Origin: Bacillota bacterium | GTDB taxonomy: Bacteria > Actinomycetota > Aquicultoria > Aquicultorales > Aquicultoraceae | DNA: 37,586 nucleotides | Reading direction: 5' to 3' | NCBI GenBank assembly: GCA_023511485.1 | Contig: JAIMBH010000025.1 | Span: 1 to 37,586 of the forward strand | Shown: piece by piece, positions 6,086 through 13,893 of the stretch | Position numbering within the stretch: the stretch's first letter is position 1 | How the letters are laid out: each line of letters begins with the position of its first letter | Translations under genes and position numbers: made by a program | The notes under the pieces: generated by a model | Databases searched by the model: none | What the model was told of the DNA's origin: nothing | What the model saw: only the letters and a program-made list of their open reading frames with translations

Positions 6086-7654
6086 ATGAAAGCAGTAGTA
6101 GTTGGAGCAACCGGTTTCATAGGTGTTGCGTTATGTCACTATTTAAAGCAATGCGGTTGGGAAGTTACGGTTTTAGCAAGAAATGCTAGTAAAGCCGAAA
6201 AGGTATTGGGTGTTGGCTACAACATCATAAGCTGGTCCCCTGATTCAGATATCCCCCAAGAAGCACTCCAAGATAGCGATGCTGTTATAAACCTGGCTGG
6301 TGAACCAATCGGTAATGGAAGATGGACCCGAGAACGCAAACAGCGTATTTTGGAGAGTCGGGTTCAAACTACAAAAAAGCTGGTTGAGGCAATAAAAGGT
6401 CTCGATAAGAGACCGGAAGTATTGATAAACGCCTCAGCGGTTGGATATTATGGCCCACGGGGCGATGAAACGCTCTGTGAGAAAGAAAGGCATGGAAGCG
6501 ATTTCCTGGCCGAAGTTTGTAAGAAATGGGAGGAAGAGGCGTTAAAGGCAAGGCGGCTTCGCGTAAGGGTCGTGCCGGTTCGGATTGGGATAGTCCTTGG
6601 TCGCGGAGGCGCACTTAAGCGCATGTTAACACCGTATAAGCTTTTTGCCGGCGGTAGGATTGGCAATGGAAAGCAATGGATGTCCTGGATACATCGCGAC
6701 GACCTTGTTGGAATAATAAAATTTGTAGCTGAAGACGGTTCCATAAACGGTCCTGTTAACGCGACCGCCCCGCGGCCTGTTACTATGAACGAGTTCTCAC
6801 GGGTGCTGGGGCGGGTTATGCATCGTCCATCATGGCTTCCCCTACCAGGTATTATTGTTAGAATGGGCTTAGGTGAAATGTCTGATATGGTACTTAAAGG
6901 GCAACGGGTTCTTCCCTGCAAGCTGATGGAGGCAGGATATGAATTTAAATTCGAATCGTTGGTGGATGCCTTAAGGGATGTCCTAAGAAAAAGAAAAGAT
7001 AAAAAGCCTGCGCCAGAGGCTATCGCAACTAAGAAAGAATCAGTTAGCTTGAGTTCGGGAATCGATACTGGCGATAATAGTAAAACAAGCGAAGGTAAAA
7101 CAAGCAGCGCCACTTCCAGGCAACGCAAGTCAGACAGCGCTAAGAAAACCGTAAAAAGCAAGTCACACGCAGCAGATAAGAAGCTAGCTAAGAGCAGCCA
7201 AAAATCTCCAAAAACCACTGCATCGTCAAAAAGAGCTAGCCAGGCGAAAACAAAAAACAATGCCGGCACTAACGGCTCAAGTGAAACAGTAGTGGCAGCA
7301 CGCAATGGCAAGTCAGGAAAAATATCGAATAGTGCAAGTAGAGCCTCTAAACATACCAAGCCAAATGGAGTTAAAGTTAGTGCTTCAGGAACTAAGACAA
7401 GCACTCCAGGTAAAGCAAACGGCAATGCTAGGAACAATGGCAGCGGCAAGCTGGCAAAATCAGCAGCACAGGCGAATTCAAATGGCCTGAGTAAGACAAA
7501 AAGCAAAACCAGCACAAATGGTTCTCGCAGCGCTGTAAAGGCCAACAGTGCAAAAGCTTCGATGCAAACCAATGGAGCGGGCAAAACAGTGGCAGACACT
7601 AATGGGGCAAGTAGTACAAGTGGGGCGGGCAAGTCAGCAAGCAAGGCTAAATAG
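6086..7654 (+). CDS. TIGR01777-family epimerase-like protein with long basic disordered tail
   Basis: Residues 1 to about 300 form an extended short-chain dehydrogenase of the TIGR01777/YfcH group. The NAD(P)-binding motif GATGFIG is at residues 8-14, and VINLAGEPIGNGRW and the SAVGYYG block follow. The C-terminal 'epimerase' subdomain carries the MSWIHRDDL and GPVNATAPRPVT blocks. The family is widespread but its reaction is not established. Residues about 302-522 are an extra tail almost wholly of Lys, Ser, Ala, Thr, Asn and Gly with no aromatic core. It resembles histone-H1-like or other basic disordered tails and is unusual for this family, whose members are normally near 300 residues. 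No stop or frameshift separates the parts. It stands alone on the plus strand, and a strong terminator follows. Confidence 0.85.
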   Translation: MKAVVVGATGFIGVALCHYLKQCGWEVTVLARNASKAEKVLGVGYNIISWSPDSDIPQEALQDSDAVINLAGEPIGNGRWTRERKQRILESRVQTTKKLVEAIKGLDKRPEVLINASAVGYYGPRGDETLCEKERHGSDFLAEVCKKWEEEALKARRLRVRVVPVRIGIVLGRGGALKRMLTPYKLFAGGRIGNGKQWMSWIHRDDLVGIIKFVAEDGSINGPVNATAPRPVTMNEFSRVLGRVMHRPSWLPLPGIIVRMGLGEMSDMVLKGQRVLPCKLMEAGYEFKFESLVDALRDVLRKRKDKKPAPEAIATKKESVSLSSGIDTGDNSKTSEGKTSSATSRQRKSDSAKKTVKSKSHAADKKLAKSSQKSPKTTASSKRASQAKTKNNAGTNGSSETVVAARNGKSGKISNSASRASKHTKPNGVKVSASGTKTSTPGKANGNARNNGSGKLAKSAAQANSNGLSKTKSKTSTNGSRSAVKANSAKASMQTNGAGKTVADTNGASSTSGAGKSASKAK

Positions 7655-9389: not shown

Positions 9390-9557
9390 ATGGATATAAT
9401 TAAGCGATTGTTTGGGAAGAAACCAATACCTGAAAACCTGGGCCGGAATCAGCCCTGCTGGTGTGGAAGCGGCAAGAAATATAAGCATTGCCACTATGAC
9501 AGGGACCAGAAAAAGTTGTCCACCATAAGAGCCGGCAAATGTAGCCCGAGCGGCTGA
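9390..9557 (+). CDS. Small SEC-C motif protein
   Basis: A 55-codon reading frame from ATG at 9390 to TGA at 9555-9557. Residues about 18-35 read [18 protein letters not shown], an almost perfect SEC-C motif (C-x-C-x8-C-H), the zinc-binding element found at the C-terminus of SecA and in many small proteins. The rest is a basic N-terminus and a short tail. SEC-C proteins bind zinc and often contact SecB or ribosomes; what this one does is unknown. No strong Shine-Dalgarno is visible, which is a weakness of the start. The conserved motif makes the frame convincing. Confidence 0.8.
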
Positions 9558-9713
9558 AGCTCGTAGTGCGTGTGGGTGCACGCTAGTGATTCCGCTCCCC
9601 CATAAACCATGCGGCTATCATTAAGTTGTATGCACGCAGTTTAGTATGCGTAAGTCTGAGGAATATTTATCTAAAGGGTATACTAAGCCGTTTAGCAATC
9701 AAAGGGTGGCCAA

Positions 9714-10817
9714 GTGGTCAAAATATACGGTTTGATTGTGTTAGTTATTTTTATCATAGCCGTGTATAAGTGGGGTACGATATCTACACTTCTTCATCTA
9801 CGGGGATCATCTTTAAGAATAAGAGGTTTTAAGAATCGCAAGGTAATCAAAGAAGAAAAAGATGTCGGCAACAACGAGGGCGGCAGACCTTTATATAACA
9901 GACATTATCACTTCCTTACTCCACCGGCAAAGATGGATCTACAGCAGATAAGCAGACTAGAGAGGCTCCATGCGAGCTTAAAGAATCCAGGGGTACGCCT
10001 AAGTTGGCGGGCACATCGCAAAGCAGCAGACCATAATTACCATTCCACTGATAGGTTTAAAGGGATGACCATTGAAAGTCATAAGGCCGATAATTTTGTC
10101 GCACTTCAGGCAAAAATTGATTCGCTGCTTGAAACGAAAAAGGATGCAAGAATTATAACGCCAGCCGGGATGCGAACACTGATAGCTGCGACGGATAAAA
10201 AATGGCGACCCCTTATTATAACCGCATGCTGCACTGGTATGAGGGCTGTGGAGCTTATAGGTTTACTTTGGGAGGATATTGATTTCTATAGAGGAAGGAT
10301 AAGCGTAAAGCGCATTTTCTGTGACGGTAGGTTTCGCGATACCAAGCCCGAGTCGCAAAATAGATCGATTATAGTTCCGCCGATTGTGATAGACGCTCTT
10401 AAGGAGCACAGAGTTAACCAAATACAAAACGGTATAAGTACCTCAAATAATTTTATTTTTACAAGCTCGACCGGGAAACCTTTGAGCCTGGGTAGCCTTG
10501 AGAAGCGTATTTTGAAACCGGCTTTAGTAAAGGCAGGCATGGGCGAGATTGACTTTGAGGATATTCGCTATAGCTATGCCATGGCTCTTTTAAATTCTGG
10601 GGAGAACGTTACTTTTGTCTACAAACAGCTTGGTCTCCTCGTAACTGAAAGCGATGATCAAGCCTATAGGGAATCTCAAAGTGACATAGAAAAAGGAGCA
10701 AACAGTAGATTAGGCTCTATATTTGGTACAATGCCCTTTGAAAAGGATGCGGCAGTGTTGGGTAACGATATTTATAACAGGGACGATTTACTCTACCCTC
10801 CATGGATGGAAAATTAG
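9714..10817 (+). CDS. Membrane-anchored tyrosine-recombinase-fold protein with altered active site
   Basis: 367 residues from GTG at 9714, supported by an AAGGGTGG site 5 nt upstream. Residues 5-20 are a single hydrophobic helix, then a basic and polar stretch of about 120 residues. From about 145 to 320 a phage-integrase-type catalytic domain follows. Box I is clear (TGMRAVELIGLLWEDID, R177). A beta-hairpin Lys (K211, DTKPESQNRS) and R285 (FEDIRYSYA) are present, and Y318 aligns with the nucleophile. The His of the HxxR motif is Glu (E282), and the His/Trp before the nucleophile is Leu (L308, QLGLLVTE). A normal DNA core-binding domain is not obvious. I infer a domesticated recombinase-like protein, possibly non-catalytic. 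No att sites or phage genes are nearby. Confidence 0.72.
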   Translation: MVKIYGLIVLVIFIIAVYKWGTISTLLHLRGSSLRIRGFKNRKVIKEEKDVGNNEGGRPLYNRHYHFLTPPAKMDLQQISRLERLHASLKNPGVRLSWRAHRKAADHNYHSTDRFKGMTIESHKADNFVALQAKIDSLLETKKDARIITPAGMRTLIAATDKKWRPLIITACCTGMRAVELIGLLWEDIDFYRGRISVKRIFCDGRFRDTKPESQNRSIIVPPIVIDALKEHRVNQIQNGISTSNNFIFTSSTGKPLSLGSLEKRILKPALVKAGMGEIDFEDIRYSYAMALLNSGENVTFVYKQLGLLVTESDDQAYRESQSDIEKGANSRLGSIFGTMPFEKDAAVLGNDIYNRDDLLYPPWMEN

Positions 10818-13890: not shown

Positions 13891-13893
13891 GCG

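Follow-up and report, generated by a model that had tools for sequence, protein, structure and literature searches.

As a rule, tyrosine recombinases are soluble enzymes that cut DNA. Members of the phage integrase family (PF00589), among them XerA (5hxy), an MRSA integrase (3nkh) and the integrase of Tn1549, share catalytic-domain fold and sequence with the three proteins described here, whose nearest relatives are two class-specific integrases (L009 and L010). Unlike the PF00589 integrases, these proteins have an N-terminal membrane helix and lack a detectable core-binding or arm domain; the catalytic histidines are replaced in the protein described first below, and the active site is further lost in its relatives. 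A membrane-linked catalytic domain is also found in the complex of the XerD C-terminal domain with FtsK gamma (5dcf), but there the link is made by a partner and XerD is soluble and active, whereas the anchored proteins carry the anchor in the same chain. Host reuse of a mobile-element recombinase is likewise described for Crypton-derived genes (PMC3212892), which are however eukaryotic. No description of a membrane-bound or inactive tyrosine recombinase was found in the open-access literature searched. In one small lineage of bacteria, what was a DNA-cutting enzyme of mobile elements appears to have become a membrane-anchored protein which, judging from its family, probably no longer cuts DNA. 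If true, this would be an unusual bacterial exaptation, in which a recombinase became anchored in the membrane while losing its chemistry, and a natural test of the role of the catalytic domain without cutting.

The window, meaning the whole stretch of 37,586 nucleotides analysed (contig JAIMBH010000025.1), carries one anchored gene with the following features.

9714 to 10817, plus strand: membrane-anchored tyrosine-recombinase-fold protein with an altered active site, 367 amino acids (open reading frame, Pfam, model)
9701 to 9709, plus strand: ribosome-binding-site-like AAAGGGTGG ahead of the GTG start (read from the sequence)
9714 to 9794, plus strand: N-terminal membrane helix, residues 1-27 (hydropathy and model)
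9795 to 10139, plus strand: linker, residues 28-142, in place of a core-binding domain (Pfam, model)
10140 to 10733, plus strand: tyrosine-recombinase catalytic domain, residues 143-340 (Pfam, pLDDT, Foldseek)
10557 to 10559, plus strand: codon of E282, at the HxxR histidine position (histidine in 31 of 31 aligned integrases)
10635 to 10637, plus strand: codon of L308, at the His/Trp-III position (histidine in 31 of 31 aligned integrases)
10665 to 10667, plus strand: codon of Y318, at the nucleophile position, its spacing from residue 308 kept (alignment)

The preliminary description had proposed a well-placed start and a membrane helix at residues 5-20, and both were borne out. The frame of 367 amino acids is real, lies on the plus strand and opens with GTG preceded by AAAGGGTGG-CCAA; the corresponding place before the start of a paralogue on contig C42 is occupied by AAGGGGG. 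Residues 1-19 have a mean Kyte-Doolittle hydropathy of 2.36, and an AlphaFold2 model built from a 35-row alignment (mean pLDDT 74) contains a single N-terminal helix at residues 2-27. Positive residues come after the helix in all three copies and, based on the positive-inside rule, the catalytic domain is therefore predicted to face the cytoplasm. A CadC/ToxR-like one-component sensor was considered and rejected, because a helix at the extreme N-terminus leaves no extracytoplasmic domain. The linker was modelled mostly with low confidence, with a helix at residues 120-141 right ahead of the catalytic domain. That a core-binding domain is not evident, as the preliminary description had it, agrees with Pfam, which returned no match to a SAM-like core-binding family in the window protein and such matches in six of six ordinary integrases tested. 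A weak match to PF14177 (YkyB) at residues 63-102 was below the cut-off and was treated as chance.

The recombinase fold was confirmed by comparison with known structures. PF00589 matched residues 153-307 at 7e-13, and the ten-residue mean pLDDT was 92-98 over most of residues 151-310 and 82-87 in residues 311-340. The best Foldseek match of the model was XerA (5hxy, E 3e-8), and 3nkh and Tn1549 Int were found as well. With phmmer the window protein matched the PDB integrases and XerA only marginally (E 0.006-0.01); a profile of the three anchored sequences reached 4e-8 against the PDB. In the 35-row alignment the active site of the window protein reads R177, K211, E282, R285, L308 and Y318, just as the preliminary description had read it, with both histidines replaced. 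The complete set R, K, H, R, H, Y, together with the lack of an N-terminal helix, was found in 31 of 31 ordinary integrases of the alignment. The pentad R, K, H, R, H/W plus the tyrosine nucleophile was found neither in the window protein (R, K, E, R, L, Y) nor in its two relatives, and all three have tyrosine instead of histidine after HxxR (position 286). Four of six catalytic residues remain in the window copy, so that on its own it cannot with certainty be called dead. R177, K211, R285 and Y318 at correct spacing would accord with a recombinase that is still wholly or partly active (nicking) at the membrane, for example on incoming DNA, with activity lost in the relatives. We rate this reading as quite improbable: both catalytic histidines are replaced (by glutamate and leucine), as many as five of the six positions are altered in the relatives, the core-binding domain is absent and no att-like structure was seen alongside the gene.

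The anchored family is known from three loci in two genera. A second copy (L002:1300-2262, 320 amino acids) lies on contig C42 of the same genome (G000) and is 42-43% identical to the window protein over residues 91-347, and a third (L008:1174-2157) was found in G004, which belongs to another genus. For L008 the second ATG, five codons in and after GGAGGTG, is on sequence grounds the likelier start, and the helix is unaffected by this choice. N-terminal membrane helices are present in both L002 (hydropathy 2.97) and L008 (2.54), and neither gave a Pfam match to a SAM-like core-binding domain. The catalytic positions are T, S, D, R, Y, Q in L002, the nucleophile tyrosine being replaced by glutamine, and K, E, G, R, D in L008, followed by a tyrosine two residues out of register (a two-residue gap). 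Of the features whose conservation the preliminary description had asked about, the helix recurs, and both catalytic histidines are replaced again, by other residues than E282/L308 (D/Y in L002, G/D in L008). Homologues which start after the helix and carry normal histidines were seen only among more distant outgroup integrases. L002 and L008 can be aligned through the linker too (36% over 320 columns). For the window copy, similarity to these two lies mostly in the catalytic part; it may thus represent an older paralogue.

The combination of N-terminal helix, linker and altered catalytic domain was found in one clade. Among about 60 other integrase frames, none had both an N-terminal hydropathy above 1.9 and a changed active site; the highest hydropathy among them (L124, 1.87) belongs to a frame with a normal active site. 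A scan with the family alignment of a contig collection that may omit records close to the window brought up ordinary integrases alone, all of them distant (identity of about 33% or below across at least 100 residues). Viral contigs gave no relative of L002 and, with the family alignment, only distant integrases, and phage and plasmid records searched with the recombinase yielded only ordinary integrases. No operator-like repeat shared by the regions upstream of the three anchored genes was found.

A tree of the catalytic domain, from which the catalytic columns and position 286 were excluded, separated the anchored proteins from the others by a branch supported at 100/99. The anchored group, on a long stem (0.72), sits inside the class-specific integrase group with L009 and L010; the branching order within it is weakly supported (86/20). 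On this tree the anchored architecture has a single origin. The anchored proteins keep 18-21 of 26 conserved non-catalytic columns (ordinary integrases: mean 92%, minimum 69%), while of the catalytic columns the window copy keeps 4/6, L002 1/6 and L008 2/6. When catalytic columns were compared with the other conserved columns (Fisher test), p was 0.006 for L002, 0.12 for L008 and 0.63 for the window copy, whose two altered positions alone would accordingly not establish a specific loss of catalysis. Since the contrast is significant for L002 only, the case for lost catalysis is made by the family and not by the window copy on its own.

Lost catalytic residues, and the existence of genuinely decayed integrases in the same genome, could also point to a decaying integrase remnant with an accidentally hydrophobic start. 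This reading is disfavoured and has only a slight probability in our estimation, as the helix and domain layout is common to three diverged copies and the frames are intact at about 0.7 changes per site, where roughly 15 stops would be expected without selection (a rough figure, from branch length). Purifying selection in an allele pair also opposes it. The end of contig C42 and the start of contig C16 share an 828-bp overlap of 93% identity, in which the stretches at either end are identical; the two probably represent unmerged strain variants of one locus and not two genes. Over 140 codons pN/pS was 0.40 (15 nonsynonymous changes in 325 sites versus 11 synonymous in 95; Fisher p = 0.017), and nine of the 14 amino-acid differences fall in L002 residues 282-300, the former tyrosine loop. 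By these measures the anchored frames are intact and under selection, and the shared architecture argues likewise against a merely degenerate integrase, the outcome that would have spoken against the original proposal.

That proposal, a recombinase fold reused at the membrane, agrees with nearest homologues that share the helix, have more altered active sites and form one clade. We give an even chance to a lineage-specific family in which a class-specific integrase became a membrane-anchored, non-cutting protein at the cytoplasmic face of the inner membrane. A phage- or ICE-type integrase of the same class would have lost its arm- and core-binding domains and gained an N-terminal membrane anchor, and active-site residues would have been lost afterwards, leaving a non-cutting protein at that membrane face. 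Both roles suggested earlier, DNA tethering and non-cutting regulation, would be compatible with the data.

The DNA clamp of ordinary recombinases requires the core-binding domain, and because this domain is missing the usual clamp cannot form. The net charges of the anchored catalytic domains are low (+4, -2 and +3; ordinary integrases -4 to +11) and hence lend no support to DNA binding, which for both reasons can be called possible and no more. The C-terminal helix is moderately conserved, with 5-9 of 18 residues identical to L009. Pentad mutants of Cre and Flp have been followed through target binding and synapsis ahead of cleavage (PMC4381057), and in XerA-type enzymes the C-terminal helix mediates protomer-protomer contacts (PMC3646895). 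By analogy, either property could be retained in the anchored proteins. In the most likely mechanism the catalytic domain would still contact DNA, dock on recombinase protomers through the C-terminal helix, or both, so that the anchor would tether either DNA or an integrase complex to the membrane.

We favour such a non-cutting membrane tether, its main rivals being a dominant-negative regulator and a pure scaffold. As a dominant-negative or sequestering regulator, the anchored domain would pair, via the C-terminal helix groove, with protomers of an integrase, invading or resident, and tie them to the membrane, with integration or excision limited as a result. The C-terminal helix region is partly kept relative to L009/L010 (9/18 in the window copy, 5/18 in the others) and little of the tyrosine loop is left (1/15, 1/15 and 4/13, where L009/L010 keep 11/15), which would favour this reading; its patchy distribution among relatives fits as well, as do the decayed fragments of integrases (L004/L049, L007, L042) in its genome and genus. 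However, an intact integrase of the L009/L010 type was not found in G000 and no defence-system match was obtained, and we consider this regulator unlikely.

A further gene adjoins the recombinase gene at two of the three loci, beside L002 at L170:14708-15595 and beside L008 at L171:10184-11023. The order of the two genes differs: the further gene lies upstream of the recombinase in one genome, downstream of it in the other. It is absent next to the window copy and from the rest of the window. The product has 279-295 amino acids, is 44% identical over 255 residues between the two genera and has seven invariant cysteines; its model is all-helical with low confidence (pLDDT 59). In searches of 148 relatives and 396 members of the phylum, two sets that overlap, it occurs only in these two genomes; the single further match was marginal (E 0.003) and covered 68 residues of a longer frame. 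No match to this protein family came from the libraries searched: there was none in viral contigs, phages, plasmids, NCBIfam, PHROGs or PADLOC, none above the cut-off in Pfam, and no meaningful one by fold or sequence in the PDB. Because the genes are adjacent, the partner is taken to act together with the anchored recombinase. More tentatively than the membrane family itself, and at somewhat less than an even chance, we propose a new two-gene system, in which an integrase domain exapted once, a dead, membrane-tethered holder of DNA or recombinase, would work with this undescribed helical, cysteine-rich partner. The same adjacency at two loci, the low net charge and the absent core-binding domain would suit a purely structural protein, its fold serving as a scaffold, for the partner or for a complex in the membrane, and binding neither DNA nor recombinases. 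Against it, R217, R285 and the DLRYSYA motif region remain conserved and the window copy has no partner nearby; we consider this scaffold as unlikely as the regulator.

Element genes were not recognised beside any of the three anchored copies. Around the window gene, where the preliminary description had reported no phage genes, inspection of the open reading frames by eye gave the same picture. The nearest tRNA is at 13893. When synteny around the window was searched, HtrA homologues were located but the empty site did not show up. The integrase fragments in the window's genome and genus (L004/L049, L007, L042) are decayed or truncated, and one of them has an internal TAG and HDLIHSY instead of HxxR. 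Just upstream of the anchored gene, positions 9390-9557 (plus strand) encode a 55-residue frame with a SEC-C-like zinc motif, as judged by eye. Positions 6086-7654 (plus strand) encode what appears by eye to be an SDR-type epimerase whose histone-H1-like tail, about 200 residues long, is rich in Lys, Ser, Ala and Asn.
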